Positions 7,549-53,018 of a stretch of DNA of 64,000 bases are shown here, piece after piece (position 1 is the first letter of the stretch; every line of letters begins with the position of its first letter). The stretch is from positions 1 through 64,000 of IMG/VR virus record IMGVR_UViG_3300037237_000386; one strand, written 5' to 3'. Under the pieces are notes generated by a model, which was not told the origin of the DNA, searched no databases, and saw nothing but the letters and a program-made list of their open reading frames with translations. The position numbers and the translations under genes are program-made. Origin of the DNA: a virus.

Positions 7549-8480
7549 AGCTCGACGTCGAGGACGTGCTGCGGCGCCTCGGCATCGAGGGCAAGCAGGC
7601 GGGGGACCACATCGTCGCGCTCTGCCCGTTCCATGACGACAGCAGCCCGAGCTGGCGCATCCGCCGGCGCGGGGCGAAGAAGGGCCTGCACCACTGCCAG
7701 GCGTGCAAGGAGGGCGGCGACGTCGTCAGCCTCGTGATGCACCTGAAGGGGTACGGCACGCGCGAGGGTGCGACGGCGTGGCTGACGCGCGAGGGCCAGG
7801 AGGTGACGGAGGCGGACCTGCAGATCGAGCCGGTGCGCCTGGTCGTTGGGGACCACGTGCGCCGGGAGTTCCGTATGCCGCCGGGCTTCGAGGGGGCGGG
7901 CAAGATGGTCGACTGGCCGGACGCGGTCGCGGAGTACGCGGCGAGCCGGGGCATGAGCGCCGCCCAGGTGGCGCGGTGGAGCGTCGGCTACGCGCTCGAG
8001 GGTCGCCTCAAGGGACGCCTGGTCGTGCCTATCCGCGACGCGCGGGGAGCACCGAGGAGCTACGTGGGGCGGACCTTCGTCGGGGCGGAGCGGCGGTACC
8101 TCTACCCGCGCGAGGAGGAGAAGCCGGACATGGGCGCGATGTTCGGGGAGGAGCACTGGCCTCCGCCGGAGAAGCGGCTGCTCGTGGTCGTGACGGAGGG
8201 GGCGCTGAAGGGGCTCGCCGTCGAGCGGGCGTTCCCGATCCCGCACGCGGCGGTCGGCGGGTCGGGGCTGCGCCTGCAGCACCTGGCGAAGCTCGCGACG
8301 TTCAGGATCGTGGTCGTGATGACGGACGAGGACGAGGCCGGCAGGAACCTACGCGACGAGCTCGCCGGGTCACTCGCCCGGCGCGTGGGAGTGCAGCATG
8401 TTAGGTTGCCGGAAGGACAGGACGCGGACTCGATGAGCAGGGAGGCGCTGCGTGGAAAGCTCGGACCCGCCCTCGGATGA
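7545..8480 (+). CDS. dnaG-like: DnaG-type DNA primase
   Basis: 311 residues, GTG start overlapping the upstream stop (GTGA). A CHC2 zinc finger uses Cys27, His30, Cys51 and Cys54. A TOPRIM catalytic core follows with Glu218 in VTEGALKG and the acidic DED triad at 261-263. It would lay down RNA primers for the family B polymerase. It is shorter than bacterial DnaG (about 600 residues) and lacks the C-terminal helicase-binding domain, typical for phages. It ends 29 bases inside the following HTH gene. Confidence 0.92.
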   Translation: MKLDVEDVLRRLGIEGKQAGDHIVALCPFHDDSSPSWRIRRRGAKKGLHHCQACKEGGDVVSLVMHLKGYGTREGATAWLTREGQEVTEADLQIEPVRLVVGDHVRREFRMPPGFEGAGKMVDWPDAVAEYAASRGMSAAQVARWSVGYALEGRLKGRLVVPIRDARGAPRSYVGRTFVGAERRYLYPREEEKPDMGAMFGEEHWPPPEKRLLVVVTEGALKGLAVERAFPIPHAAVGGSGLRLQHLAKLATFRIVVVMTDEDEAGRNLRDELAGSLARRVGVQHVRLPEGQDADSMSREALRGKLGPALG

Positions 8481-9023: not shown

Positions 9024-9538
9024 GCAACGCAGCTCGGCACCTCGACGGGCACTTCGAGCGCGCGGCCATGGCGGGCAGCGCGGCGGCGAAGCTGCGCGAC
9101 CTGGCGCGGGGCAAGGCGGTGCGCGTCGTGCGCGAGCTGGAGAGGCGGCTCGTCGAGGCTCTCGACGGAGGGACGTTGCGGGGCCTGCGGACGCTCGCGC
9201 CCGAGGAGGCGGGACCCTACTACGCGGCGAACGTGCGCGTCGGCGGGAGGCACGGCATTGACACGTGGCTGCGCGGCGAGGACGTGCTCTGCATCGACAA
9301 GGACGGGCGGCTCGTCATGGCGGGGTTGTGGGACGACGGTCCGGTCCCCGTGTCGTACGTGCGGGCGCACCCGGCGAGGGACGAGGAGCTGCGCGCGGAG
9401 GACGCGGAGGCGATGGCGAGCGCCGTGCGCCAGGTGCTGGAGCGGCACGCCGCGGCGAGCGCGAGGACCGGGGAGAGGCACGCCCGGGCGGGGGCGGCGG
9501 CCGAGGAGCTGGCCCGAGCCCTCGGGATGACCCTCTGA
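9020..9538 (+). CDS. Hypothetical protein
   Basis: 172 residues, GTG start overlapping the previous stop. The N-terminal third is helical and basic, the middle has beta-strand-like segments (around GRHGIDTWL), and the C-terminus is Ala-rich and helical. No family recognised. It is the last gene before the palindrome at 9559 and a clear promoter, so it probably closes the first replication transcript. Confidence 0.7.
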   Translation: MSNAARHLDGHFERAAMAGSAAAKLRDLARGKAVRVVRELERRLVEALDGGTLRGLRTLAPEEAGPYYAANVRVGGRHGIDTWLRGEDVLCIDKDGRLVMAGLWDDGPVPVSYVRAHPARDEELRAEDAEAMASAVRQVLERHAAASARTGERHARAGAAAEELARALGMTL

Positions 9539-9631: not shown

Positions 9632-9901
9632 ATGGACAGCACGACGAACCCGACGGCAGGCCTGACGGTGACGCGCGAGGACGGTTACTTCTGCGCCCGC
9701 CAGGAGGCCGAGATGAAGACGATCGCGGTGGTTGCAGCACCTACGCCCGCCGGTTATGCGCAGCGGGCCGTTTTTGCCACCACGGAGCTTGGTGCCATCC
9801 GGCGTGCCCGCCAATTGGAGGGTCAGGTCATCGTCGTCGCTTGGCCTGCCGCTGGCTCCAGGGCGCCGTACTGGACCGTGGCCGTTCGGGTGGCGTCGTG
9901 A
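9632..9901 (+). CDS. Small hypothetical protein, leaderless
   Basis: 89 residues. The frame is open further up, but that part encodes the promoter; ATG 9632, 7 bases after the -10, is the reasoned start. The protein looks like a small alpha/beta domain (repeated TTELGAIRRARQLEG helix, then strands). No family recognised. It begins the transcript that carries the UvrD-type helicase. Confidence 0.7.
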   Translation: MDSTTNPTAGLTVTREDGYFCARQEAEMKTIAVVAAPTPAGYAQRAVFATTELGAIRRARQLEGQVIVVAWPAAGSRAPYWTVAVRVAS

Positions 9902-9953
9902 GGCGAATCGAGCAACGGACCGCGTACCCGATGAGCGACGGGGAGACACGACC

Positions 9954-12938
9954 ATGACGATTCCTATCTGGCTGAAGAACATGAACCCGGAGCAGGTGCA
10001 GGCAATCGAGCATCAGGACGGGCCGTGCGCCCTCCTCGCGCAGGCGGGCTGCCATCGCGCGGGAACCGAGATCCTGATGGCGGACGGGAGCATCGAGTCG
10101 GTGGAGGACGTGCAGGTTGGTGACTTCCTCATGGGACCGAACGGGGTGGAGCGGAAGGTGCTCGGTCTCTGTCGTGGTGAAGGGCAGATGTACAGGGTCG
10201 TCCCGGTGAAGGGCGAACCGTTCGTCGTGAACGAGGACCACGTGCTGACGCTCGTCGAGACGAGCACGGACGCGGTGACAGATGTGAAGGTGAGCGACTG
10301 GCTGGAGTGGTCGGAGTACAGCCGGAAGAATCACAAGCTCTTCCGAGTCGGGGTGACGCGGTTCAGCGGCACTTGGGACCGGAGGTGGCCGGTGGACCCG
10401 TACTTACTCGGTGTTCTCCTCGGGGACGGGAGCATCGTGCGTTCGGTGGGAGTGACCACGGTCGACCCGGAGTTGCAGCGGTACGTGCGCCACATAGCGG
10501 AGGTGTACGGGCTCGCCGTGAGGCAGGACGGCGATGGAGGTTCCACGACGACGTGGACGCTGACCGCGCGCAACGGAGAGGGACAGGGACCGGGTCGCAA
10601 CCCCATCGTGAACGGGCTGAAGGAGTTGGGTCTCTACGGGTGCAAGAGTGGGACGAAGTTCGTTCCGGATTGCTACCTGAGAGCGCCGGTGGAGACGCGA
10701 CTGGAGGTGCTCGCCGGGCTGATGGACACGGACGGGAGCCTCAGCGGAGGAGGGTTCGACTACATCACGAAGTCACCCAGGCTTGCCGCGGGTGTGTTCT
10801 TCCTCGCGAGGAGTTGCGGGTTTGCTGCGTACGTGACCGAGTGCTGGAAGCAGGACCAGCATGGGACGGGAGGCATGTACCAGCGCATCTCGATCTCGGG
10901 CGACATGTCGACACTGCCGACCATCGTGGCTCGGAAGAAGGCAGCCCCGAGGCAGCAGAAGAAGGACGTGCTTCGGACAGGCGTAACGCTGGAGCGGCTC
11001 GGGGTGGAGAAGTTCTACGGCTTCACACTCGACTTCGACGGGCGGTACGTGATGGGTGACTTCACCGTCACACACAACAGCGGCAAGACGCGCGCGCTCG
11101 TGCACCGCATCGCCCGCATGGTGGAGCAGGGCACGCCGGCACGCCGCATCCTCGCCGTGACCTTCAGCAAGAAGGCAGCCGACGAGATGAACGAGCGCCT
11201 GGACAAGCTCGGCATCGACGACGCGCGCGTGGGCACGTGGCACTCGCTCTGCCTGCAGATCCTGCGCGAGGACGAGACGGCGTGGGCGGAGTGGGACCGG
11301 AGCGACGAGGCCCAGGCGAAGGTGGGCGGGCTCCTGAAGGAGGCTCTCGGCTTCAAGCACCTGAACTGGCGCGAGGCGGACGCGGGAGCCGTGGAGCGGT
11401 ACATCGGCTGGTGCAAGGCGCACCTGGCGGACCCCATGAGCGAGGTGGCACAGGAGCTGGCGGAGGAGAAGTTCGAGACGGCGCGGGAGGCGGAGCTGGC
11501 GATGCGCGCCTACGACGTCTACCAGCGGCTCGTGGAGGAGAAGAACATCCTCACCTACGACGACTTCCTCGTGTTCGCGCACCGGCACCTCGTGAAGGAC
11601 GAGGAGGCCCGGCTGAAGTGGGCGAGCAGATGGACGCAGATGCTGGTCGACGAGGCCCAGGACAACAATCCGGCGCAGAAGGCGATGCAGCACCTGCTCG
11701 CGAAGGAGCACCGGAACCTGATGCTGGTGGGCGACGTGGCGCAGTCGATCTACGGCTTCCGCGGCAGCAACCCGGCGTTCCTCGCGGGCTTCGCGGCGGA
11801 GTGGGGCGGGACGACGGTCATCATGAACCGGAACTACCGGAGCGGCCGGGCCATCGTGAACGTGGCGAACAAGATCATCGCCTCGGCGGCGGTGCGCCTG
11901 CCCACGGACATGCTCGCGGAGCGGGACCACGAGGGCACGGCGCGCGCGCTCGGGCACACGGACCAAGACGCGGAGGGGGAAGCCTTCGCGCAGTGGGTGC
12001 TGGAGATGAGCACGGACCATCAGCCGCTGAGCAGCATGTGCGCCCTCTTCCGCACGAACGCGCAGAGCCGGGCGCTGGAGGAGGCGTGCCTGAAGCACCG
12101 CATCCCGTACGTGGTGGTCGGCGGGACGAGCTTCTACGAGCGGCGCGAGGTGAAGAACCTGCTCGCGTACCTGCGGGTCGCCACGGGCCGGGACAAGGAT
12201 GGGGACGCGGTGAAGCGGTGCATCAACACGCCGTTCCGCTTCCTCGGCACGGCCTTCGTCGAGCGGATGATGGACGCGGCGGCGGGCAAGAAGGTCAGCA
12301 ACTGGCCGGCGCTCGCGCGCAAGGTGGCGGAGCAGGCGGGCATCCAGACGCGGCAGCGCGCGAGCGTGCAGGAGTGGGCGAACCTCCTCGAGCGCGTGGG
12401 CGCGAACATCGCGGCGGGGGAGGCAGCGTTCCAGGCGGAGACGGCGCCCGTGCCCGAGGCCCGCCCCGCGGCAATCCTGAACGAGTTGGTGGAGCGCACG
12501 GGCTACCTGAAGTACTTGGAGCGCGAGCAGGGCGTGGAGAGCGTCGAGAACAGCCACGCGGCGAACGTGCGCGAGATGGTGCGCATCGCGGAGCGGTTCG
12601 ACACCGTGAAGGATCTGCTCGACTACATCGAGGCGATGGCGAAGGCGGCGAAGAAGCAGCGCGCGGACGGGCAGGCGGGCGGCGAGCGCGTCCTTCTGAT
12701 GAGCGTGCACCGGAGCAAGGGCCTGGAGTGGGCGAACGTGTGGGTCAACGGCTGCAACGAGATGGTGCTGCCGCACGTGCGCGGCGACATCGAGGAGGAG
12801 CGCCGGCTGATGTACGTGGCCGCCACACGAGCCCGGGACAACCTGGTGCTCAGCTACGTGCGGCAGTTCGCGCGCCCCGAAGGGATCAAGGAAGCGCAGC
12901 CGAGCAGGTTCCTCCGCGACGCCGGGCTGGTGGCGTGA
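9954..12938 (+). CDS. uvrD-like: UvrD/PcrA-type SF1 helicase interrupted by an intein
   Basis: 994 residues as translated; about 651 after intein removal. ATG 9954 has GGGGAGA upstream. The Walker A loop AGSGKT is split after Gly32 by a 343-residue intein and resumes with SGKTR. Remaining SF1A motifs are intact: LVDEAQD (II), QSIYGFRG (III), NRNYRS (IV), SVHRSKGLEW (V region) and YVAATRA (VI). It should translocate 3'-5' and act in repair or replication restart. ATP cannot bind until the intein is spliced out, because the P-loop is interrupted. Confidence 0.93.
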   Translation: MTIPIWLKNMNPEQVQAIEHQDGPCALLAQAGCHRAGTEILMADGSIESVEDVQVGDFLMGPNGVERKVLGLCRGEGQMYRVVPVKGEPFVVNEDHVLTLVETSTDAVTDVKVSDWLEWSEYSRKNHKLFRVGVTRFSGTWDRRWPVDPYLLGVLLGDGSIVRSVGVTTVDPELQRYVRHIAEVYGLAVRQDGDGGSTTTWTLTARNGEGQGPGRNPIVNGLKELGLYGCKSGTKFVPDCYLRAPVETRLEVLAGLMDTDGSLSGGGFDYITKSPRLAAGVFFLARSCGFAAYVTECWKQDQHGTGGMYQRISISGDMSTLPTIVARKKAAPRQQKKDVLRTGVTLERLGVEKFYGFTLDFDGRYVMGDFTVTHNSGKTRALVHRIARMVEQGTPARRILAVTFSKKAADEMNERLDKLGIDDARVGTWHSLCLQILREDETAWAEWDRSDEAQAKVGGLLKEALGFKHLNWREADAGAVERYIGWCKAHLADPMSEVAQELAEEKFETAREAELAMRAYDVYQRLVEEKNILTYDDFLVFAHRHLVKDEEARLKWASRWTQMLVDEAQDNNPAQKAMQHLLAKEHRNLMLVGDVAQSIYGFRGSNPAFLAGFAAEWGGTTVIMNRNYRSGRAIVNVANKIIASAAVRLPTDMLAERDHEGTARALGHTDQDAEGEAFAQWVLEMSTDHQPLSSMCALFRTNAQSRALEEACLKHRIPYVVVGGTSFYERREVKNLLAYLRVATGRDKDGDAVKRCINTPFRFLGTAFVERMMDAAAGKKVSNWPALARKVAEQAGIQTRQRASVQEWANLLERVGANIAAGEAAFQAETAPVPEARPAAILNELVERTGYLKYLEREQGVESVENSHAANVREMVRIAERFDTVKDLLDYIEAMAKAAKKQRADGQAGGERVLLMSVHRSKGLEWANVWVNGCNEMVLPHVRGDIEEERRLMYVAATRARDNLVLSYVRQFARPEGIKEAQPSRFLRDAGLVA
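10050..11078 (+). other. Intein in the helicase P-loop, with LAGLIDADG endonuclease
   Basis: 343 residues, beginning at Cys1 (CHRAGTEILM) and ending VTHN, with Ser as the first downstream extein residue. The N-terminal splicing block (GTEILMADG) and C-terminal block (FDGRYVMGDFTVTHN) are present. The middle holds two LAGLIDADG-type helices, LLGVLLGDGSI and LAGLMDTDGSL, each with the acidic residue, so the homing endonuclease could be active. Insertion between Gly and Ser of the Walker A motif is a known hot spot for inteins in ATPases. Confidence 0.93.
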
Positions 12939-15585: not shown

Positions 15586-15759
15586 GTGGGAGCGAGGCTC
15601 AAGGTCGTCAAGGGGAGGGAGACGAAGCAAGAGCGCGAGGACAGGGAGGCAGACGAAGCGGTGGAGGAGGTTGTTCGCGTCTGCCTCCGGATGAGTGGGC
15701 GAGGACGGCTGGAGTACCTCGCGTCGCTCATTGATTCCGTCGCAAGGCGGGCGCGATGA
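15586..15759 (+). CDS. Small hypothetical protein
   Basis: 57 residues from GTG 15586, two bases after the previous stop, too short for the usual filter. Helical and charged (KQEREDREADEAVEEVV). The next gene starts inside its stop. Function unknown. Confidence 0.55.
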   Translation: MGARLKVVKGRETKQEREDREADEAVEEVVRVCLRMSGRGRLEYLASLIDSVARRAR

Positions 15760-16040
15760 GCGACGACATGCCGTGCACGGCGTGCGACGGACACGGGCGC
15801 GTGCCCCTGAGCCAGGAGTTGCAGGACAGCCTCGACAAGGTGCGCGAGGGCGGTGTGGAGACGGCGGAGGACCTCTGGAAGACGATGGCGAAGGGGTTGT
15901 GGAAGACGGCGGCCGTCAATCGTCTGGAGAGGCTCCGCACGCTCGGGTACTTGGAGCGGACGAAGCGAGGCCGCACGTGGCATTACTCCGCGAGGACCGC
16001 GGCGCAGGTGGTCGAGGTGAAGAAGCGACAGCGGCGCTGA
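15756..16040 (+). CDS. Small protein with zinc motif and winged-helix-like C-terminus
   Basis: 94 residues, ATGA overlap. The N-terminus carries CTACDGHG, half of a DnaJ-type CxxCxGxG zinc repeat. Residues 45-85 (KTAAVNRLERLRTLGYLERTKRGRTWHYS) look like a winged helix of the type that separates strands or reads DNA. It directly precedes the DNA polymerase, so a regulatory or replication role is plausible. Confidence 0.6.
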   Translation: MSDDMPCTACDGHGRVPLSQELQDSLDKVREGGVETAEDLWKTMAKGLWKTAAVNRLERLRTLGYLERTKRGRTWHYSARTAAQVVEVKKRQRR

Positions 16041-16063
16041 CGCGCGCCAAGACGGGCGTCATC

Positions 16064-19000
16064 ATGGGAGACGTGTACGGCGCCGGGTACGTGAACGGGT
16101 ACGTGGATGGGAGCAGGGTGACCCTGCTCTCGCGCGGGGCAGGCGGCAGGCTGCAGCGCAGCCAGGTGCCCGCGGAGCACGTCGCCTACTTCCGCAAGGA
16201 CGAGCTGCCGCCGGAGCTGGAGAAGCTCCTCCTGCGGAACTGCGCCGGCGCGAAGCTCGAGGACGGCGGGTGGATGCGGTTCGCGCTGCCCGAGCACGTG
16301 CGCCGCAACGTGTGCATCGAGGACGTGTGGAAGAACGCCAGCGGCGAGAAGCGGGACAACCCGTTCGCGGCGGTGCCTAGCTACGAGGGAGACGTCGACC
16401 CGGTGCGGCGGTTCCTGACGGACAGCAAGGCGACCGTCGCTCGGCCGAGGCGCGCGTACACGGACATCGAGACCGACTCCAGGGTCCCCTTCAACCGGAA
16501 GCACGAGATGCGCGTGCTCAGTTGGGGGCTGCAGGCGCACGACACGGGCGAGATGCGCGTGGGCGTCCTCCAAGCCGACACGGACGGTGCGGAGGCGGAG
16601 CTGCTCGGGCAGTGGTGGGAGGCGATGGAGGAGTTCGACCAGGTGGCCGCCTGGAACGGGGGCGAGGCGGACCCCGACGGCGACGGGTTCGACTTCCCGG
16701 TCATCATGGCCCGCTCGGAGCACGTGAAGCTCCGTGGCGTGGACCCGAGGAGGTTCCTCTACGTCGACCAGCTGGAGGCGTTCCGGCGGATGAATCAGCA
16801 CGCGTCGGAGAGCGGCGAGGAGAAGCAGAGCATGAAGCTCGACTCCATCGCGCACATCCTCCTCGGCGCGGGCAAGGACGACTTCGACGCGAGCCACACG
16901 TGGGAGGCTTGGGCGGCGGGAGGACCCGAGCGCAGGCGCCTCGTGAAGTACATGATGCGGGACGTCGACTTGCTGCGGCAGATCGAGCTGAAGACGCAGT
17001 TCCTCGATCTCTTCTCGACGCTCTGCGGCGTCTTCCACATGTTCGCGGACACGCGAGGGCTGAACCCGACGCAGCAGGTGGACGCGTACATGCTCGGGTT
17101 CCTCCGCGAGCGCGGACTGCACCGCCCGACGAAGAAGCGCATCGAGAAGGGCGAGAAGTTCAAGGGCGGGTACGTGATGAACCCGCCGCGCTTCGTCGGC
17201 GTGGAGAAGGACATTCACGTGGCGGACTTCGCGGGGATGTACCCGAGCATCATCCGCTCGTGGAACATGAGCCACGAGACGAAGGCGGCGAACGCACCGG
17301 TGAACGGGCCCGTGCCTGAGGGGTTCTGCCGGTGCCCCAAGACGGGCACGAGCTTCACGACGGCGGAGGAGGGGCTGCTCAGCATCGCGGTCGGCAACCT
17401 CATCGAGAACCGGAAGAAGTACCGGAAGCTGAAGGCGAGCCTGGCGCCGGGGTCGCCGGAGTTCGCGGACGCGGACCGCCTGAGCGACTCGTACAAGGTG
17501 GCCACGAACATCTTCTTCGGGGTCGTGGGCAGCCCGTTCAGTCCCTACTTCGACAAGCAGATTGCGGAAGGCATCACGCAGAACGGCGTGTGGCTCATCG
17601 AGCACACCATCGCCGCGGCGGAGAAGCGCGGGTGGTTCGTCGGCTACGGCGACAGCGTCACGGGGGATCGAACTGTCGTCTTACGCTCGCCTGCAGGAAG
17701 GACCGTCATCAAGCCGGTGGAGGAGGTGTTCGAGGACGGGTGTGACGTGGTGCGCGCACGCGACAAGGAGTTCGTCTTCATGCAGGGGTGGGAGGCACTC
17801 GCCCGAGACGCGAAGGGTCGCGAGGGCTGGTATCCGCTGACGCAGGTTGTCCGTCATCGCACGTGCAAGGAGCTCGTGCGCATCTCGACGAAGCGCGGCG
17901 AAACGGAGGTGACGAGTGACCATTCGATCATGTCCGGCGGACGCGAGGTGAAGCCCGACGAGTTCCTGGCGGCAGGAGCGCGGTTCGAGAAGGTCGACGC
18001 CCAGGAAGGCAGGAAGCTAGAGCGTGTTGACCTGTTCGAGTACCTGACTGACTTCAAGGTTTCGTACGCGTCCCGAGGACGTGTGAGGGTGAAGGAGTTC
18101 TTCGTTACGGCGGACGGCGAGTGGGTCGGGTTGAGAATGCGAGGTTCGACGAAGCAGTACATCCGGCGGTTTTATGACGCGGGATCGGAGCGGTTCAGGG
18201 CGCTGCTGCGCGTGATGGGGGCGTATCTGGCCGAGGGGAGCGCGAGTATCCGCAAGCTGACGGCGACTCGTGACATGTTCTCTATCGGGCAGTCCGACCC
18301 GGACTGGCTCGCCCCGTTGCAGAAGGACTTGGCTTCGTTCACGCAGGGGGTTGAGACGGACCTGATGCCGACTGGGGGAGGGATGTGGGCAATTCGTTCG
18401 GGAGCCGCGCTGCTGCCGTACGCGTTCGCTGCACTCTGCGGATTCAGGTCGAGTGGCAAGCGGTTTCCGGACTTCGTGTACGACCTGGCGGATGACGACT
18501 TTGCGGAGATGAAACGTCCCATGGTGGAGGGGGATGGACACGTCGTGGAGCCGGACGTGTGGAGGAGCAGGGCGCTGCGGCGAAGCCCCGGGCACGAGTT
18601 CTCGTACACAACGAAGTCGCAGGTGCTGATGGCGGGGTTCTCGTATGCGCTGGACCAGCGTGGGTTCGAGCACGCGATCCACTACAGACCGGAGAAGCGG
18701 TGTTGGACGTTGAGGACAAGGCCGACGGGGACAGAGCGACCGAACAGGCAGCGGGTGCTCGTCTCGCGGCGGAAGGCTGAGGACGAGTGGGTGTACGACT
18801 TGACGGTGGAGGGGGCACACACGTTTGTCGATGGCATCGGTAGGGTGCTTCTGCACAACACCGACAGCATCTACGTGAAGGGACCGACGAAGGCGGAGTT
18901 CGAGGCGTTCACGAAGTGGTGCAACGAGGAGCTCTACCCGCCGCTGATGAAGCAGGTGGGGTGTCCGCGCAACGTCGTGAACTTGGAGTACGAGAAGGAG

Positions 19001-19945
19001 TTCGAGCGCATCGTCTTCGTCACGGCGAAGCGCTATGCCGGCTGGTACAAGCACTTCAAGGGCAACGCGCCGAAGGCGGACGCGAAGCCCGAGGTGAAGG
19101 GCCTGGAGTACAAGCGGGGCGACAGCACGAAGCTCGCGCGCGACCTGCAGGTGCGCGTCGTGGAGATGCTGATGAAGGGCGAGGAGGGGATGGAGGCGTT
19201 CCATGAGCTGCTCTCGCACGCGCGACAGCACGTGCTCGAGGACGCGCTGCCCCTGGCCGAGGTGGTGATGCGCAAGGAGCTCAGCAAGGCGCTGCGCGAG
19301 TACGCGGTGAAGAAGAAGAAGGACGGCGAGGACGCGGCGCAGTCGCCGCACGTGGTCGTGGCCAAGATGCTGAAGGCCCGCGGCCAGGACGTCAGTGCCG
19401 GCACACGCGTCGGCTACGTGGTGCTCGACGACGAGGCGGAGGACCCGGCGAAGCGGTTCATGCCGGAGGAGGACTACAAGGGCGAGTGCGACCGGCACTA
19501 CGTGTGGCAGTCGCTCGTCTACCCGCCGACGATGCGCCTCCTCGAAGCAGCGTTCCCCGATGCGGACGCGGTGAAGCATTGGGAGGCTTGGGCCAAGAGC
19601 CGCCCGAGCAAGAAGGCCCTGAAGGCGCTGGAGCAGGGGCAGGGAGCTCTCTTCAAGTCGGAGGAAACCCGGGTTTCCCCCACGGGTCTGCGGACGACAG
19701 CGCCTCCCACGCTGGCGAGCACTCAGCCTTACGAGGCGGTCGTCGACCAGGACAAGTTGGAGGCGGCCGGGGGCCTGGAGGTGCTGCTCGCGGTCGCGCA
19801 GCGGCATCCGGGCAAGCGGATGCTCAAGCTGCGGCTGCGTCTCGACACGGGGGCGGAGGCGGCGATGGACACGGCGGTGCGCGTGGATGGTGGCGGGGCG
19901 CTGGCGCGGAAGCTCGCCCTCTTCCGGCACGTTGCTGCGTCGTGA
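16064..19945 (+). CDS. polB: Family B DNA polymerase interrupted by an intein
   Basis: 1293 residues as translated, about 891 without the intein. The 3'-5' exonuclease domain shows DIE (Asp134, Glu136) in Exo I, an N-x-x...FDFP Exo II region and YMMRDVD (Exo III). Polymerase motif A is DFAGMYPSI, motif B is KVATNIFFGVVG, and motif C is YGD/TDS, split by the intein between Asp and Thr. The two catalytic aspartates therefore come together only after splicing. Motif A has FAGMYPS instead of the usual SLYPS. It would be the replicative polymerase of the phage. The palindrome copy 4 lies inside the 3' linker region of the gene. Confidence 0.95.
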   Translation: MGDVYGAGYVNGYVDGSRVTLLSRGAGGRLQRSQVPAEHVAYFRKDELPPELEKLLLRNCAGAKLEDGGWMRFALPEHVRRNVCIEDVWKNASGEKRDNPFAAVPSYEGDVDPVRRFLTDSKATVARPRRAYTDIETDSRVPFNRKHEMRVLSWGLQAHDTGEMRVGVLQADTDGAEAELLGQWWEAMEEFDQVAAWNGGEADPDGDGFDFPVIMARSEHVKLRGVDPRRFLYVDQLEAFRRMNQHASESGEEKQSMKLDSIAHILLGAGKDDFDASHTWEAWAAGGPERRRLVKYMMRDVDLLRQIELKTQFLDLFSTLCGVFHMFADTRGLNPTQQVDAYMLGFLRERGLHRPTKKRIEKGEKFKGGYVMNPPRFVGVEKDIHVADFAGMYPSIIRSWNMSHETKAANAPVNGPVPEGFCRCPKTGTSFTTAEEGLLSIAVGNLIENRKKYRKLKASLAPGSPEFADADRLSDSYKVATNIFFGVVGSPFSPYFDKQIAEGITQNGVWLIEHTIAAAEKRGWFVGYGDSVTGDRTVVLRSPAGRTVIKPVEEVFEDGCDVVRARDKEFVFMQGWEALARDAKGREGWYPLTQVVRHRTCKELVRISTKRGETEVTSDHSIMSGGREVKPDEFLAAGARFEKVDAQEGRKLERVDLFEYLTDFKVSYASRGRVRVKEFFVTADGEWVGLRMRGSTKQYIRRFYDAGSERFRALLRVMGAYLAEGSASIRKLTATRDMFSIGQSDPDWLAPLQKDLASFTQGVETDLMPTGGGMWAIRSGAALLPYAFAALCGFRSSGKRFPDFVYDLADDDFAEMKRPMVEGDGHVVEPDVWRSRALRRSPGHEFSYTTKSQVLMAGFSYALDQRGFEHAIHYRPEKRCWTLRTRPTGTERPNRQRVLVSRRKAEDEWVYDLTVEGAHTFVDGIGRVLLHNTDSIYVKGPTKAEFEAFTKWCNEELYPPLMKQVGCPRNVVNLEYEKEFERIVFVTAKRYAGWYKHFKGNAPKADAKPEVKGLEYKRGDSTKLARDLQVRVVEMLMKGEEGMEAFHELLSHARQHVLEDALPLAEVVMRKELSKALREYAVKKKKDGEDAAQSPHVVVAKMLKARGQDVSAGTRVGYVVLDDEAEDPAKRFMPEEDYKGECDRHYVWQSLVYPPTMRLLEAAFPDADAVKHWEAWAKSRPSKKALKALEQGQGALFKSEETRVSPTGLRTTAPPTLASTQPYEAVVDQDKLEAAGGLEVLLAVAQRHPGKRMLKLRLRLDTGAEAAMDTAVRVDGGGALARKLALFRHVAAS
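17654..18859 (+). other. Intein in polymerase motif C, with LAGLIDADG-type endonuclease
   Basis: 402 residues, from Ser1 (SVTGDRTVVL) to a terminal HN, with Thr as the first downstream extein residue. This is the classical polymerase insertion point YGD/TDS used by archaeal and phage inteins. The splicing blocks are visible (SVTGDRT; VYDLTVEGAHTFV...VLLHN). The centre holds a LAGLIDADG-like helix (VMGAYLAEGSAS) and a second VEGDGHV, consistent with a DOD endonuclease that may still work. Confidence 0.93.
19663..19678 (+). repeat. Dispersed palindrome copy 4, inside polB
   Basis: Perfect 16-bp copy inside the coding sequence, encoding EETRVSP in the linker before the last domain of the polymerase. 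It is the only copy well inside a long gene. Confidence 0.9.
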
Positions 19946-28591: not shown

Positions 28592-29287
28592 GTGAGGAAG
28601 AAGGCGAAGAGGGCCCCGGCGCAGAAGCCGGCGGGCAAGGCGGCGCCGAGTGTTGTCGGCAAGGTGGAGATGGCGGCGCTCGACCTCGTGCGCCCGAACA
28701 CCTGGAACCCGAACCGGCTGACGCCCTTCGAGAAGCGAGCGCTCAAGCACGGGCTCGAGCACGACACGTGGCTGCCGAGCCACGCGCTCACGATCTGGAG
28801 GACCGACGAGAAGGGCAAGAAGAAGATGCTCGTCATCGACGGCGAGCACCGCTGGACCGCCGCCCGGGAGCTCGGCCTGAAGGAGGGACCGATGGTGTTC
28901 CTCGACGGGCTGACCGAGGCCGAGGCGAAGGCCTGGACCGTGAAGCTCGACGCGAAGCGGGGCAAGTTCGACGAGGACAAGATGGGCCCCCTCCTCCGGA
29001 GCCTGGAGCCGACGATGGACGTGGAGACGCGAGCGCTCGACCTCGGCATCGACGAGGACCGCCTCGTGCGGTACCTCGACGACGAGCCGGACAAGGCCGT
29101 GGTCGGCGAGCTGCCGAGCGGGCAGCGGGCGAGCGTGCGGCAGGTGCAGCTCTTCTTCCCGCAGGCGCGCTACGACGAGTTCCAGAAGATGGTGCGGGAG
29201 ATGGCGGGGAGCCTGAAGACGAAGAACGTGACCGACACGGTGCTGGAGGTGGTCCGCCGTGCGGGCGCAGCTGCAGCTCCGAAGTAG
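28592..29287 (+). CDS. ParB/Srx-like domain protein, paralogue A
   Basis: 231 residues, GTG start with GGAGG 8 bases upstream. The ParB/sulfiredoxin-fold core is recognised by NPNRLTPFEK and VIDGEHRWTAARELG (Asp83, Glu85, His86, Arg87). Many phage proteins with this domain act as nucleases or nucleotide-dependent enzymes rather than in partition. It shares long blocks with the gene at 30178 (SHALTIWRTDEKG, KLDAKRGKFD). The pair flanks a TET/JBP-type dioxygenase, so a role in base modification or its regulation is inferred. Confidence 0.8.
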   Translation: MRKKAKRAPAQKPAGKAAPSVVGKVEMAALDLVRPNTWNPNRLTPFEKRALKHGLEHDTWLPSHALTIWRTDEKGKKKMLVIDGEHRWTAARELGLKEGPMVFLDGLTEAEAKAWTVKLDAKRGKFDEDKMGPLLRSLEPTMDVETRALDLGIDEDRLVRYLDDEPDKAVVGELPSGQRASVRQVQLFFPQARYDEFQKMVREMAGSLKTKNVTDTVLEVVRRAGAAAAPK

Positions 29288-29912: not shown

Positions 29913-30178
29913 TGGCGGTCATGCGCCGGGGTCACTACCGCGGGGCAGAGCTCGTGTTCCCGAAGTACGGCGTGGGTGCGGACCTGCAGCACGGCGACGT
30001 CATCTTCTTCGATCCGCACGAGGTGCACGGCAACCTGGCGTTCCGTGAGGGCATCGGCGTGGAGGCGGAAGATTGGGCTCGGATCTCGATGGTCATGTAC
30101 TTCAGGACGCGCATGGTCGATTGCCTGGAGCCGAGGGCGGAGTTGGAGCGCGCCAAGGGCGTGCGAGGAGAGGTGTGA
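29912..30178 (+). CDS. TET/JBP-type dioxygenase, C-terminal part
   Basis: 88 residues from ATG 29912, which shares a base with the stop of the first part (TGATG), so reinitiation is possible. It carries the distal family motifs: GHYRGAELVFPKYGV, HGDVIFFDPHEVHGN with the second iron-binding His, and MVMYFRTRM. The first iron-binding His and Asp (HTD) are encoded upstream in this same frame, at about 29872-29884, before any start codon. A full enzyme therefore needs frameshifting rather than reinitiation. Confidence 0.7.
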   Translation: MAVMRRGHYRGAELVFPKYGVGADLQHGDVIFFDPHEVHGNLAFREGIGVEAEDWARISMVMYFRTRMVDCLEPRAELERAKGVRGEV

Positions 30179-30825
30179 TGGGCAAGCGGAAGAAGCCGAC
30201 GGTGAGTGCGGTGGTCAACTCGCCGCTGACGGGCGTGAAGCCGAATCCGTGGAATCCGAACCGACTGACGGCGTTCGAGAAGGAGAGCCTGAAGTTCGGC
30301 ATCCGTGAGGACGGGTGGCTCGCCAGCCACGCGCTCACCATCTGGCGCACGGACGAGAAGGGCAGAGAGAGGAACCTGGTCATCGACGGCGAGCACCGGC
30401 TGGTGGCGGCGCTGGAGCTCGGGATGACGGTCGGCCCGATGTGCTTCATCGACGGGATGAAGGAGAGCGACGCGAAGAAGCTCACCATCAAGCTCGACGC
30501 GAAGCGCGGCAAGTTCGACCAGGAGCTCCTGCAGACGCTCGTCAGGAGCATCGCGGATGGCCTCGACCTGGAGACGAGGAGCCTGGCCCTCGGCATCGGT
30601 GAGGACGTGCTCGGGGAGATGCTCGACACGACGCCGGATACACCCGTCGTCGGGGAGCTCGGCAGTGGCAGGACGAGCGACACGAAGGTGGTCACGTTGT
30701 TCTTCACGCCCGAGGGACATGACGAGTTCCTGAAGGTGGCCAAGGAGCTGGCGGTGCGCTTCAAGCAGCAGACGACGAGCGACACGGTGTTCGAGGCGGT
30801 GCGAAGGGCGAACGCCGCAAGATAG
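30178..30825 (+). CDS. ParB/Srx-like domain protein, paralogue B
   Basis: 215 residues, sharing a base with the dioxygenase stop. Same architecture as the protein at 28592: NPNRLTAFEK, SHALTIWRTDEKG, VIDGEHRLVAALELG (Asp70, Glu72, His73, Arg74), KLDAKRGKFDQE. The C-termini also align (VVTLFF...DEF), so the two come from a duplication with the dioxygenase placed between. Both probably share a job in DNA modification, with different partners or targets. Alternatively they are DNA-binding regulators. Confidence 0.8.
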   Translation: MGKRKKPTVSAVVNSPLTGVKPNPWNPNRLTAFEKESLKFGIREDGWLASHALTIWRTDEKGRERNLVIDGEHRLVAALELGMTVGPMCFIDGMKESDAKKLTIKLDAKRGKFDQELLQTLVRSIADGLDLETRSLALGIGEDVLGEMLDTTPDTPVVGELGSGRTSDTKVVTLFFTPEGHDEFLKVAKELAVRFKQQTTSDTVFEAVRRANAAR

Positions 30826-48075: not shown

Positions 48076-48335
48076 GCTGGTGGGAGTGGTGCTCGAGGGT
48101 GGTCGCGGGGGTGGCGCTGATTCTGTTCATCGCGGAGCTGCGCCGCCGCGCGAAGGCCAAGGGGTACGCCGAGGGCTACGCGAAGGGCATGGCGGACGAG
48201 CAGGTGCTGCGCGCCCAGGGGGTGCCCATCGGGGTCACGATGCGTGTGCTCCCGGGCAAGGAGACGGTCGCGGACAAGGAGGCGGAGCTCCGCATGCACG
48301 CGGGTTTGCCGCCGAAGAAGGAGAGGACCAATTGA
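48072..48335 (+). CDS. Small membrane protein
   Basis: 87 residues, ATGA overlap. One N-terminal membrane segment (residues 7-22), then a basic, cytoplasmic-looking tail. Function unknown. Confidence 0.6.
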   Translation: MSWWEWCSRVVAGVALILFIAELRRRAKAKGYAEGYAKGMADEQVLRAQGVPIGVTMRVLPGKETVADKEAELRMHAGLPPKKERTN

Positions 48336-48667
48336 AGTCGCTGCTGGAGTTCAAGTGCGAGGACAGGATCGGGACGAACCCGGACGTGGCGGCAAGCATC
48401 GTGTGGCACGTCGTGAAGAAGGCGGGCGACCAGAAGCTGCACGTGACGGAGGTGCGCATCGCGATCAGGAGCGTGTTCGTGGAGATCGAAGTGCCCGACG
48501 AGCTCTCGCGGTTCGACGCGGACGCGTACTCGAGGGTCGTCGGCGAGCAGTTGAAGGACGCGGTAGTGGAGGGGGCGAGGGTGGCGACGACACTCTCAAG
48601 GCGGACCGATGAAGGCCGGGGTGAGGCGATTTTGGTGGGTCATGCAACATCGTCGCCCATCCGCTGA
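48332..48667 (+). CDS. Hypothetical protein, TTG start
   Basis: 111 residues, TTG by TTGA overlap. Helical with a central strand (HVTEVRIAIRSVFVEIEVP). The 3' end overlaps another open frame at 48609 that is not obviously coding. Function unknown. Confidence 0.55.
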   Translation: MKSLLEFKCEDRIGTNPDVAASIVWHVVKKAGDQKLHVTEVRIAIRSVFVEIEVPDELSRFDADAYSRVVGEQLKDAVVEGARVATTLSRRTDEGRGEAILVGHATSSPIR

Positions 48668-48725
48668 TGGTGGTGTGGCCTCGGGTGGGCGAGAGGCTTC
48701 ACGAGTGGACCGGACGGAGGATGTG

Positions 48726-48917
48726 ATGGCTGAAGAAAAGTACCCGTGTCCGTGTGGCCGTGCACCGTTCGGGCAACCCATCATGGTGCCGTGTCGGTGT
48801 GGCGCGAACTGGTGTGAGGCTTGTGCTCACACGAAGTGCCACGTCGATCCACCCGTCGCCGGTACGACGATCCCGAACGGCGGTGACTGGCGAGGGGCAG
48901 CCGGAGGCCCGTTTTGA
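48726..48917 (+). CDS. Small protein with multiple Cys pairs
   Basis: 63 residues, GGAGG 5 bases before ATG 48726. CPCG...CRCG...WCEAC forms a compact metal-binding array. It begins the accessory block with visibly lower GC. Stop codon is the first base triplet of a conserved intergenic repeat. Confidence 0.6.
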   Translation: MAEEKYPCPCGRAPFGQPIMVPCRCGANWCEACAHTKCHVDPPVAGTTIPNGGDWRGAAGGPF

Positions 48918-48936
48918 CACTCGGCATTGTGCGCGC
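48915..48936 (+). repeat. Cassette-boundary repeat, copy C (diverged)
   Basis: TGACACTCGGCATTGTGCGC..., starting at the stop codon of the preceding gene. Matches copies A and B at 18 of 22 positions and carries the same position relative to the next ribosome site. Confidence 0.6.
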
Positions 48937-48953
48937 GGCGTGAGGGAGAGACC

Positions 48954-49832
48954 ATGAGCAAGCGGACGACCGAGTTTCTACCACCCGTCACCTACCAAGG
49001 CGGCAAGGGCCGCCTAGCAGCGCAGATCGTCGAGACGATGGGGCTCCCCATCGCCGGTCGATTCTATGACCTCTGTTGCGGCTCGGGCGCCATCTCAGTT
49101 GCCGCAGTCGAGCGGGGCCAAGACCCGAGCCGCATCACAATGGTCGACCTCTCGCCATGGGGTCTCTTCTGGAAGTCGATTGGCGACGGGTCCTTTGACG
49201 TTTCTCAATTCGAGTTGCATGCAGCGCGAGTGCCACGCGACCCCTGGAAGATAAAAGAATACGTAGAAGCCCTTTCGCGAGAGCGCGTGGGCGACGATCG
49301 CGTCTATGTGTTCCTGATCTTGCAGGCTGCACGGTTTGGCGGCGCGGCGATCTGGATTGACGGAGAGAAGTGGTGTGGCGGCGGCTTCCGTCAATACTGG
49401 ACATCGGCGTCGTCGAAAAAGGAACCGACACGCGGTCGAGAGAACCCCAATTCAACACCGCCCATGTGCCCCATGCCCGACGTCATCGTAGCGCGGTGCC
49501 GATCGCTCGCTCAGAGGATGCGAGGGGTACGAGCCATCTGCGACGACCTTGGCAGACCGGGATTCGACCTGCGTCTAGTCGTTGGGGACGGAGATGTTGC
49601 TTACATCGATCCCCCCTACGCAGGGACGTCGAAATATGGCTACGAAGTTGACGCCTCAAAACTGGCCTCGTCGCTCGGCGTGCCGTGTTGGGTTTCTGAG
49701 GGACGCGGACTTACACCTGGCGCCATCTGTCTCTCGCGTGGACGCATGAAGGGCGGCATGTCCGGCACCCGAACACGCGCTCCGAACGAAGAATGGATCA
49801 GTCCGTTCGGAACCGAAAAAGTGCGGACATGA
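48954..49832 (+). CDS. D12-class DNA adenine methyltransferase
   Basis: 292 residues with GGGAGAG upstream. YQGGKGRLA and FYDLCCGSGAIS (motif I), and YIDPPY (219-222, motif IV), are D12/Dam-type N6-adenine methyltransferase signatures. Base composition is clearly less GC-rich than neighbours, and codon use differs (more A/T-ending codons), pointing to recent acquisition. Flanked by repeats C and A as a self-contained cassette. Probable role is evading host restriction; the target sequence is unknown. Confidence 0.85.
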   Translation: MSKRTTEFLPPVTYQGGKGRLAAQIVETMGLPIAGRFYDLCCGSGAISVAAVERGQDPSRITMVDLSPWGLFWKSIGDGSFDVSQFELHAARVPRDPWKIKEYVEALSRERVGDDRVYVFLILQAARFGGAAIWIDGEKWCGGGFRQYWTSASSKKEPTRGRENPNSTPPMCPMPDVIVARCRSLAQRMRGVRAICDDLGRPGFDLRLVVGDGDVAYIDPPYAGTSKYGYEVDASKLASSLGVPCWVSEGRGLTPGAICLSRGRMKGGMSGTRTRAPNEEWISPFGTEKVRT

Positions 49833-49851
49833 CACTCGCGCTTTTGCGCGC
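49830..49851 (+). repeat. Cassette-boundary repeat, copy A
   Basis: TGACACTCGCGCTTTTGCGC... Identical over 22 bases with copy B. It starts at the methyltransferase stop codon and contains a CGCGC-TTTT-GCGCG hairpin. The preceding 9 bases, encoding the final VRT residues, are also shared. Confidence 0.85.
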
Positions 49852-49883
49852 GTGTAGCGACGAACAGCAGGAGAGGTGAGACC

Positions 49884-50096
49884 ATGTACCGAATCGAGAG
49901 GCAGCACGAGGGACCGACGCGGGGGCACTGGCTCCCGGTCAAGGGGGCAACGTACGGGACGCGCGAGGAGGCCGCCACGGCGCTCAGGGAGACCATGGCG
50001 AACGAGCTGCGGCGGGCGAAGGCAGAGGGCCGGAGCAAGACGGAGCGGTTCAGGATTGCGCTGGCGGTCACGGCGGCGTGCATGGTGCTCCAGTGA
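49884..50096 (+). CDS. Small hypothetical protein
   Basis: 70 residues, AGGAGAGG upstream. Helical with basic patches; the N-terminus (YRIERQHEGPTRGHW) is polar. First gene after repeat A. Function unknown. Confidence 0.6.
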   Translation: MYRIERQHEGPTRGHWLPVKGATYGTREEAATALRETMANELRRAKAEGRSKTERFRIALAVTAACMVLQ

Positions 50097-50602
50097 GCAG
50101 GGGGTCGACGCCCATCTCGGGCTCTCCCGAAGAAGTGGCCGAGCTGCGCGTGGTGGCCAAGGCGCCACCTCAGATGCTGGAGCAGAAGGCCGAGCTGGAG
50201 GCCGCGTATGCCCGCATCAAGGAGCTGATGGCTGAGGCCGAGAAGGAAGAGGTGCGCTGGCAGGAGCGCATCGCGGCGGTAATCACGTCCGCCGGCCTGA
50301 CGCCAATCGATGCGAGCGGAAACGAGTCGGGCGACCCGCTCGATTGGACCGCGGATCAAGTAGCGGCAGCACTAGGGGAGTTGAATGCAGCAGCCGACGA
50401 ATCGCGCGCCCACGACGGGGCGCTTTCCGCGTTCTCCCCCGAACAGCGCGCCGAACTGGAGAAGCCGATTGCTCCCGCCCCCGCACTGGATCGGTGGGAC
50501 GGTACGTTCCTGAACTGCTGTGGCCTTCGGCAGCTCGCGGCGACATGGTGTCGACTCTGCCGCCTCGACAGGGACGGAAAGCCACACGGGAGGGGGGCGT
50601 AA
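50093..50602 (+). CDS. Hypothetical coiled-coil protein with C-terminal Cys pair
   Basis: 169 residues, GTG start by GTGA overlap. Coiled coil at residues 15-65, acidic middle, and CCGLRQLAATWCRLC near the end. Function unknown. Confidence 0.6.
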   Translation: MSRGSTPISGSPEEVAELRVVAKAPPQMLEQKAELEAAYARIKELMAEAEKEEVRWQERIAAVITSAGLTPIDASGNESGDPLDWTADQVAAALGELNAAADESRAHDGALSAFSPEQRAELEKPIAPAPALDRWDGTFLNCCGLRQLAATWCRLCRLDRDGKPHGRGA

Positions 50603-50958
50603 TGGGGCAGTACAGGGAGCGACACGGACGAGATGGTGAGAAGATTCAGCTCGTCCTCACGTCGGATGAGCAGAAGCGCATCTGGGCGAATGCGGAGCGA
50701 ACGGCTGAGCGCGTGCGGCAGTGGCCTGAGTGGAAACGCGGCGGGCATCAAGGGCGATTTGTGCTCGCCCTCACGTGCTGCGGCCGAGACGACGGCGAAG
50801 CCTCATTCGATACGTGGGATGATGCGGACGAGTTCCGTGAGCACTACCTGTCCGGTCCCGGCGTCGGTCTCCCGACAGAGACACGCTTCGGCCGTGGAGG
50901 TCATTCGAGGAGCGCGATCATCGTCGTTTGCGCTGTACGTACTGAACGCCCGTCTTAG
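50602..50958 (+). CDS. Hypothetical protein
   Basis: 118 residues, GGAGGGG upstream and start sharing a base with the previous TAA stop. Helical first half (TSDEQKRIWANAERTAERVR), then beta-like. The 3' end contains the first copy of the TTGCGCTGTACGTAC repeat. Function unknown. Confidence 0.6.
   Translation: MGQYRERHGRDGEKIQLVLTSDEQKRIWANAERTAERVRQWPEWKRGGHQGRFVLALTCCGRDDGEASFDTWDDADEFREHYLSGPGVGLPTETRFGRGGHSRSAIIVVCAVRTERPS
50928..50942 (+). repeat. Operator-like direct repeat, copy 1
   Basis: TTGCGCTGTACGTAC, repeated exactly at 50975-50989. Contains the self-complementary GTACGTAC. A possible binding site for the nearby RHH repressor. Confidence 0.7.
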
Positions 50959-50974
50959 AATCGACACCAGGCCC

Positions 50975-51003
50975 TTGCGCTGTACGTACGGAGCACGTAT
51001 AGT
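50975..51003 (+). promoter_or_regulatory. Promoter for structured RNA, with operator-like repeat
   Basis: TTGCGC, 17-base spacer, TATAGT, the best -10 in the window. The -35 and spacer include the second copy of TTGCGCTGTACGTAC. Transcription would begin near 51010. Confidence 0.65.
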
Positions 51004-51009
51004 CTAGTC

Positions 51010-51306
51010 ATCAGACAGCGACGACGCCCGCTGCGGGGATGGGCTCCCGGTAAGAAGGGCTGAGAAGAAGGTGCGTACCTACAAGGAACGCGCGGGACTG
51101 CGGTGGCTAAGAGCCGAGCGAGCGCGGGAAGGTGAAAGTAGGGCTTGCACCGAAAGCCCCCTAATGGCCGCGAGGCAGGACGAAGGGGTGAGTAGGCGGC
51201 CGTCCGAAATGCCCTAACCTGTACGTCTCCGTAACCGCTCGGCGCTTCAAGCCGCCTCGACGTTCGGCTCAGGAGAGATGACGCACGCACCTTCTTCTCA
51301 GCCCTT
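51010..51306 (+). ncRNA. Candidate structured RNA / long leader closed by a 22-bp helix
   Basis: About 300 bases without an ORF, directly after a good promoter. Bases 51055-51076 and 51285-51306 are perfectly complementary over 22 bp. Inside are hairpins at 51016-51033, 51105-51115 and 51141-51159, an 8-bp pairing of 51113-51120 with 51236-51243, and a possible pseudoknot: 51166-51171 with 51196-51201 and 51078-independent 51178-51181 with 51202-51205. The closing helix ends 14 bases before ATG 51320. It may be a regulatory leader or an independent ncRNA; no known class recognised. Confidence 0.6.
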
Positions 51307-51319
51307 GAGAGGACGAGAG

Positions 51320-51598
51320 ATGGACTTCACGGCAATCGACCTGTTCGACGGAGAGTTTTCGTTCCTGCCGTTCGAGGCGGGCGTTCGCTACGGCGAGGTC
51401 CCGCTCTACCCGACCAGCGAGGACTTCCACAACTTCGTCAGCACGAAGTGTCACGAGCAGCGTCCTGCGGCACACTGGCACCTGGAGGCCGTCCGCTGGC
51501 GCCGTCAACACCCTGGCAAGCCGCTGAACGATGGCCTCAAGGAAATCGCCATCGCGACCGCAGCGGCCATCCACAAGACGCTCGACGAGGACCGATGA
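51320..51598 (+). CDS. Hypothetical protein downstream of structured RNA
   Basis: 92 residues from ATG 51320, with GAGAGGACGAGAG directly upstream. ATG 51278 is an in-frame alternative that would place the 3' arm of the RNA helix in the coding region. Aromatic and acidic N-terminus (FTAIDLFDGEFSFLPF). No family recognised; possibly controlled by the upstream RNA. Confidence 0.6.
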   Translation: MDFTAIDLFDGEFSFLPFEAGVRYGEVPLYPTSEDFHNFVSTKCHEQRPAAHWHLEAVRWRRQHPGKPLNDGLKEIAIATAAAIHKTLDEDR

Positions 51599-51768
51599 CG
51601 CGCTCCGGCACCCCGACGACGCCCAACGGCCGGCGCAAGCGTCCGATGGTGACGCTGACGCTCTCGCCGGAGGCACTTGCCCGGCTGGACGACCTCGCAG
51701 CCGAGCGCGGGCAGACGCGCAGCGGTGCCGTCGAGGCCCTCATCCGCAACGCGCGCGTGCGGACGTGA
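51595..51768 (+). CDS. Ribbon-helix-helix (Arc/CopG-type) regulator
   Basis: 57 residues, ATGA overlap, too short for many filters. MVTLTLSPEALARLDDLAAERGQTRSGAVEALIRNA is a clear RHH DNA-binding fold. Such dimers bind short repeated operators, so the TTGCGCTGTACGTAC repeats two genes upstream are candidate targets (inference). Ends VRT and stop, as the methyltransferase does, just before repeat B. Confidence 0.85.
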   Translation: MTRSGTPTTPNGRRKRPMVTLTLSPEALARLDDLAAERGQTRSGAVEALIRNARVRT

Positions 51769-51787
51769 CACTCGCGCTTTTGCGCGC
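51766..51787 (+). repeat. Cassette-boundary repeat, copy B
   Basis: Identical 22 bases to copy A (49830-49851), starting at the RHH gene stop codon, about 15 bases before the next ribosome site. Confidence 0.85.
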
Positions 51788-51809: not shown

Positions 51810-52046
51810 ATGAGTGAAGGTGGAATCCGAAGTGCCGTCACCGTGCACCTGTCATTCTGGGACCGCGTCCGTGTGCTCTTCGGGGCGCGCATGGTCGTGT
51901 ACCTGGACACGAATGTGGAGAAGGACCCGGGTCGCCTCGTGAGCGAAGAGTCGCACGTGTGCATCGGTGAGCCGAAGGGTGGGCAGTTGATAGCGGAGTG
52001 CCGCGCTAGCCTGCGCGCGAAGAGGAACGGAACGAGGAGGACGTGA
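51810..52046 (+). CDS. Hypothetical protein
   Basis: 78 residues, GAGAGGAG upstream. Beta-rich small domain (AVTVHLSFWDRVRVLFGARMVVYLD). Function unknown; first gene after repeat B. Confidence 0.6.
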   Translation: MSEGGIRSAVTVHLSFWDRVRVLFGARMVVYLDTNVEKDPGRLVSEESHVCIGEPKGGQLIAECRASLRAKRNGTRRT

Positions 52047-52409: not shown

Positions 52410-52453
52410 TGCGCGCTGCACCCTACGGATGTGCACGACGAGCGCGGGTGCTG

Positions 52454-52459
52454 CATCAT
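52454..52459 (+). promoter_or_regulatory. -10-like CATCAT, 7 bases before a start codon
   Basis: Ends 7 bases before ATG 52467. The same hexamer stands 7 bases before ATG 57949. Confidence 0.4.
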
Positions 52460-52466
52460 GGGAGGC

Positions 52467-53018
52467 ATGCCATGCAAGCACGGACTGAACCCGCAAGCGT
52501 GCCTCCCCTGCTTCCACGAGAAGCGAAACGCGGCCCCCACGTCGAAGCCGGCGGAGCGTGCGCCGGTGCCCAAGAACAACGTCATCGACGCGGTGAAGCA
52601 GGCTCGCCTCGACGCGCAGCAGGCGGAGGGAGCCGTCAACATTCGTCTGAGGGCCGCTGGGCTACCCAATCTGCCGCCGGGCACGGACGTGCTCGAGCCG
52701 ACGGTGCACGTGGGTCCGACGCGTGTGGGCTACGAGAACGACGGCACGCCCATCGCGCAGCCCAAGCAGGAGGACCCGGAGCTCGGCAGGCCCAAGGTGA
52801 GGGGCAAGATGCCGGTGCCGGTGCTGCACGGGGGAGCGGTCGCGGGTCAGGCGCAGAAGACGCTGGAGCCATTTAGCTACGCGAGCGCGAAGCCTTGGCA
52901 CACGAAGACTGTCACTGTCGCGGGCGTGCAGCAGACCATCGCGGTGCCCCCGCGACACGGGAGCATCATCGACAGTCTGCCGAGGCACCCGAACCCGGAG
53001 CCAGCGCTCCGGCGCTGA
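52467..53018 (+). CDS. Hypothetical protein with N-terminal Cys motif
   Basis: 183 residues from ATG 52467, chosen by the -10 spacing; an upstream ATG at 52431 is in frame. CKHGLNPQACLPC at the N-terminus may bind metal, followed by Pro/Val-rich beta-type sequence. Ends immediately before palindrome copy 10. Function unknown. Confidence 0.6.
   Translation: MPCKHGLNPQACLPCFHEKRNAAPTSKPAERAPVPKNNVIDAVKQARLDAQQAEGAVNIRLRAAGLPNLPPGTDVLEPTVHVGPTRVGYENDGTPIAQPKQEDPELGRPKVRGKMPVPVLHGGAVAGQAQKTLEPFSYASAKPWHTKTVTVAGVQQTIAVPPRHGSIIDSLPRHPNPEPALRR

Follow-up and report, generated by a model that had tools for sequence, protein, structure and literature searches.

The window analysed here is 64,000 nt long and comes from a virus record of 76,918 bp, and between 48332 and 53018 it holds a run of genes that all lie on the + strand and are bounded by a left anchor gene (48332–48667) and a right anchor gene (52431–53018). 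The first gene after the left anchor is gene A (48726–48917), an open frame for a Cys-rich small protein of 63 aa, over which a longer frame (48609–48914) was found without a family match. It is followed by a gene for a D12-type adenine DNA methyltransferase of 292 aa (48954–49832; PF02086 at 3.2e-6 and phrog_56 at 1.9e-10), by ORF70, which encodes 70 aa (49884–50096), and by ORFs of 169 aa (50093–50602, with a GTGA overlap with ORF70) and 118 aa (50602–50958), neither of which matched a family above the cutoff. Further downstream lie a 92-aa ORF (51320–51598, no family), a gene for an RHH (CopG-type) DNA-binding protein of 57 aa (51595–51768; PF01402 at 5.2e-7 and phrog_4738 at 2.7e-7) and gene X (51810–52046), which encodes 78 aa, or 93 aa from an alternative GTG start at 51765, which falls within copy 2 of the repeat described below.

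Two further features precede the 92-aa ORF. A promoter of the form TTGCGC-17-TATAGT with two operator-like repeats of CTGTACGTAC spans 50928–51003 (+), and the promoter together with these repeats recurs before a different gene in the related phage G019 (L176), where 28 of 28 specified bases are identical. Next to it, a 252-bp stretch at 51055–51306 (+) is closed by a perfect 22-bp inverted repeat whose arms lie 208 nt apart, and it gave a fold z of −2.7; it had no match in Rfam at gathering or at E ≤ 5, and blastn against phages and plasmids returned either no match or weak partial matches only. We regard this stretch as a candidate non-coding RNA (structured RNA) or small mobile (terminal-repeat) element.

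Three copies of a short repeat are set among these genes. Copy 1 (49821–49851) and copy 2 (51757–51787) share the 31-nt sequence GTGCGGAC[A/G]TGACACTCGCGCTTTTGCGCGC with identity at 30 of 31 positions; the 22-mer TGACACTCGCGCTTTTGCGCGC occurs without mismatch at 49830 and 51766, the pair is 1,936 bp apart from start to start, and the duplicated block has sharp edges. Copy 3 (48915–48936) is diverged, matching at 18 of 22 positions (82%), or at 21 of 31 over the longer block, and is without the VRT part. Searches of the window and of the complete record revealed no further site for the 22-mer at ≤3 mismatches and no fourth copy. At ≤4 mismatches, exactly three sites were present in the window, compared with none in 100 window-length shuffles, and the longest exact repeats in first-order random sequences of window length were 16–20 nt. 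The three copies share the + strand, are confined to one 2.9-kb stretch and start exactly at a TGA stop, namely that of gene A (48915), the methyltransferase (49830) or the RHH gene (51766), and an ATG with a Shine-Dalgarno-like run follows 39, 54 and 44 nt downstream, respectively. The sequence-only reading had reported the 22-base identity, its extension to 31 bases with one mismatch, the diverged third copy, and the position of each repeat from a gene's stop to ahead of the next ribosome site, and all of these observations were reproduced.

The methyltransferase is an acquired gene. Its GC content is 60.6% compared with 68.4% for the phage, its codon score is −0.30 compared with 0.39 to 0.63 in backbone genes, and none of the 18 lineage relatives carries it. 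Its homologues, 36–47% identical, are dispersed among phages and plasmids that are not related to each other; they include one Bacillus and one Vibrio phage, two plasmids and 33 IMG/VR loci. The unlike composition that had been claimed for this gene was thus borne out, but its enclosure by the identical repeats was not: it sits between the diverged copy and copy 1, and the identical pair instead encloses ORF70, the ORFs at 50093 and 50602, the promoter, the RNA-like stretch, the 51320–51598 ORF and the RHH gene. The conserved core of the methyltransferase stops a few residues ahead of copy 1, which begins in VRT codons just past that core, and the repeat therefore lies outside the conserved protein. 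As side observations, one locus (L124) contains half a methyltransferase (54% over residues 1–59), and a thymidylate synthase gene adjoins or is near the methyltransferase homologue in three of four annotated records (L005, L006 and L007), a hint of some connection with base metabolism.

Relatives were found with a profile of a metallophosphatase-like protein, which yielded 19 loci on contigs of mostly 80–100 kb, and 18 records were searched; terminase was present in 16 of the 18, with up to about 50% identity. The methyltransferase or terminase used as a single query found no kin in IMG/VR, unlike IMG/VR searches with alignments, which did find matches. The nearest relative, G008, is syntenic on both sides of the locus, with homologues of the left anchor (26% identical; L154, reversed, 8164–8418) and the right anchor (32% identical; L154, reversed, 9103–9525). 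Because the same flanking genes hold 622 nt of unrelated small ORFs in G008 and 3,764 nt in the window, we take the 3.8 kb around the repeats as an accessory slot of variable content. Codon use in the slot is foreign in the methyltransferase, native-like in ORF70 (0.52) and the RHH gene, and intermediate in the others, and since it is mixed from gene to gene, the slot appears to be a gene-by-gene mosaic and not a single imported block. The repeat was detected at ≤3 mismatches in none of the 18 lineage kin, nor in the syntenic site of G008, and had 0 matches in IMG/VR. One 24-bp match among species genomes, in an Elusimicrobia MAG, falls within a coding gene (...TVTLALLRAD...) and was judged a codon coincidence.

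Other repeats were observed across the lineage. The palindrome GGAAACCCGGGTTTCC has 17 copies in the 76.9-kb record, one of them with a mismatch, at intergenic and intragenic positions (window sites 1915, 9560, 13580, 19663, 27767, 34511, 35910, 43988, 47614, 53020, 54021, 55372, 58824 and 63242; record sites 66251, 71222 and 75289). About 18 copies each are present in G008 and G019, and the palindrome also occurs in G021 and G022, while about 10 other kin each have their own private palindrome at several-kb spacing, such as CCACCGCACGGCGCCGTGCGGTGG in G018 and AAATCCAATTGGATCGATCCAATTGGATTT in G010. In the window phage, as in many relatives, a single long perfect palindrome thus recurs every few kb, in most cases private to the phage, and our guess is that these are binding sites of a co-evolving protein. 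Two ParB-like genes lie in the window at 28592–29284 and 30073–30822. We also observed that the G008 terminase (L154, reversed, 1–2910) is split by about 1.2 kb inside a single 1000-codon open frame, an insert that is probably an intein, and that the helicase and DNA polymerase genes of the window (9732–12938 and 15695–19945) either have extra segments in common with phage proteins of no relation or are unusually long, so that inteins are possible in them.

Repeated leaders were also seen in relatives. G021 has ten leader copies (L200 2089–13682; L172 95 and 1383), each before a different small gene and each consisting of a TTGACC-17-CATAAC promoter, a GGGC/GCCC stem-loop and a ribosome site. 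In G004 (L160 5226–11382), small genes are preceded by a hairpin leader that occurs at least eight times and shows paired changes from T-A to C-G in its stem, and in G009 a 21-bp repeat that runs from stop to start lies on both sides of a 77-aa gene.

Direct repeats at gene junctions have been described in Cluster O mycobacteriophages, where Corndog gene 14 is flanked by a 17-bp direct repeat at a stop/start junction, YungJamal gene 60 is flanked by 24-bp repeats, and the authors propose gene deletion or gain via recombination at the repeat (PMC4351075). The window shares with these cases a short direct repeat at gene junctions and genes beside it that are missing in relatives. It differs in that the Cluster O relatives keep a single copy at the same junction, whereas neither the 18 kin nor the G008 site has one, and in that three copies bound several genes, whereas in Corndog and YungJamal one gene is flanked. 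Promoter early stem-loops (PeSLs) combine an early promoter and a stem-loop in one element, occur in many copies in a variable region and stand before different genes in relatives. According to PMC4503421, which cites Arbiol 2010 and Comeau 2014, PeSLs of T4-type phages are repeated intergenic stem-loops before small accessory genes and are proposed to mediate cassette shuffling, as joint and leader in one. The window repeats are likewise intergenic and before small genes; they occur as three copies in a variable slot, with none in relatives, and have a stem-loop in two of the three copies but no promoter; a scan of 44–56 kb returned no sigma70-type site, and none was found in the repeats by reading. 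Because a promoter is lacking, the window copies are not PeSLs; the PeSL pattern fits the G021 leaders far better, and by this comparison the latter resemble PeSLs outside T4-type phages. In Cluster K mycobacteriophages, the Start Associated Sequences (SAS/ESAS) are 13 bp long, genome-wide and conserved among relatives, with the SAS consensus GGGATAGGAGCCC just upstream of many starts (PMC3203893). The window repeats also lie just upstream of small-gene translation starts, but are of other sequence and occur as three private copies at one locus, each starting at the stop of the gene before it.

We give an even chance to the reading that the repeats are copies of one gene-junction leader, duplicated by short-homology joining in the accessory slot of a lytic-type tailed phage; they look like copied leaders that arrived together with accessory genes, and such mosaic joints are of an ordinary kind in phages. 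The proposed leader unit would comprise a stop codon, a small stem-loop (in two of three copies) and the ribosome site of the next gene. Accessory genes may have been joined at a common junction sequence, or the junction may have been duplicated along with them, and short-homology recombination would leave, and could be fed by, a duplicated leader. The phage encodes a UvsX-like recombinase (phrog_97) that could act on the 31-nt patch, and if the exact copies recombined, the 1.9-kb block would be deleted or exchanged, leaving the methyltransferase linked directly to gene X. Evidence for the junction-leader reading comes from the local and real repeat, the content difference in G008, the lack of both repeat and methyltransferase in kin and the mosaic codon use; the start of copy 1 just past the methyltransferase core, the recombinase and, by analogy, the Corndog precedent may be added, as may the kin leaders in G021 and G004 and the repeat-flanked gene in G009. 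Against it, recombination would have to act on a short patch of 31 nt, copy 3 is just 82% identical and has no VRT part, and the 1.9-kb block is not obviously one unit because codon use inside it is mixed. As for the earlier suggestion that the repeats are joints for cassette exchange, the accessory slot is real and its contents differ in G008, but no relative has the repeat; since no deletion or exchange was seen and not one copy exists in any relative, this step is one that we infer.

Expression could instead have kept the sequence. By this account the repeats are cis-acting leaders, maintained by function as mycobacteriophage SAS sites are, in which starts that overlap stops couple translation from gene to gene and a stem-loop precedes the ribosome site. 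A start codon does overlap the stop in all three copies (ATG at 49829, GTG at 51765 and TTG at 48914), and NTGA overlaps occur at 50093 and 51595 as well. The short frames thus opened (MTLALLRACSDEQQER, VTLALLRANREETTEM... and LTLGIVRAA) begin MTLALLRA, VTLALLRA and LTLGIVRA, one of them continuing in frame into gene X. The changes in copy 3 are A to G, L to I and L to V, and the sole mismatch between the 31-nt copies is silent in one frame and in the other turns one start codon into another; with three of eight codons altered in their amino acid, however, peptide conservation is weak. Regulation by hairpins had been offered in the sequence-only reading, and folding bore this out in part: copies 1 and 2 form stem-loops when cut short (−15.2 and −8.6 kcal/mol), but copy 3 has lost the hairpin, folding worse than most of its own shuffles, and with longer flanks the repeats fold no better than shuffles. 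Stem variation from T-A to C-G in the G004 leaders also favours a leader function, whereas the restriction of the repeats to three copies in one 2.9-kb stretch does not, as SAS-type sites are spread genome-wide. Because repeated leaders occur in G021, G004 and G009, a functional leader in the window is plausible, although we hold it less probable than the duplicated junction leader. Recombination joint and expression leader are not exclusive, as the PeSL proposal for T4-type phages illustrates.

The remaining explanations are weaker. It could be that the lineage uses phage-private leader repeats, whose sequences differ among G000, G004, G009 and G021, as interchangeable joints and trades genes only between phages with the same joint, which we consider unlikely because no test supports trade between phages. 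A mobile 1.9-kb cassette might have been inserted site-specifically, duplicating 31 nt and restoring the 3' end of the gene that it entered; the direct repeats, identical at 30 of 31 positions, do flank the block and restore the VRT-stop, but no recombinase or transposase is found among the enclosed genes, the diverged third copy lies outside the block, and no circular or empty form was seen, making such an origin improbable. It is more improbable still that leaky UGA-C stops yield fusion proteins: gene A, the methyltransferase and ORF70 are in one frame (48726, 48954 and 49884 are equal modulo 3) and are parted only by the TGA of the repeat, with linkers that contain no other stop, but a shared frame arises by chance about 1 in 9 times, copy 2 does not run on into gene X, a separate ribosome site serves each gene, and methyltransferase homologues terminate at the same place. 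Integron attC sites, which have GTTRRRY / RYYYAAC cores in an imperfect palindrome of 57 nt or longer and require an integrase, were rejected, as reading found no such cores at the repeats and no integrase occurred among the slot genes tested; a sigma-54 site and a phage RNA polymerase promoter were considered, and no evidence for either was found.

The locus, from a lineage of uncultivated phages, adds a case to the small set of accessory slots that changed recently and whose joint is visible at base level. Its consequences for the window are modest, with a mechanism that is deduced rather than seen. Together with the leaders of G021 and G004, it makes the lineage a place to test whether leaders mediate gene shuffling in phages other than the T4 type.
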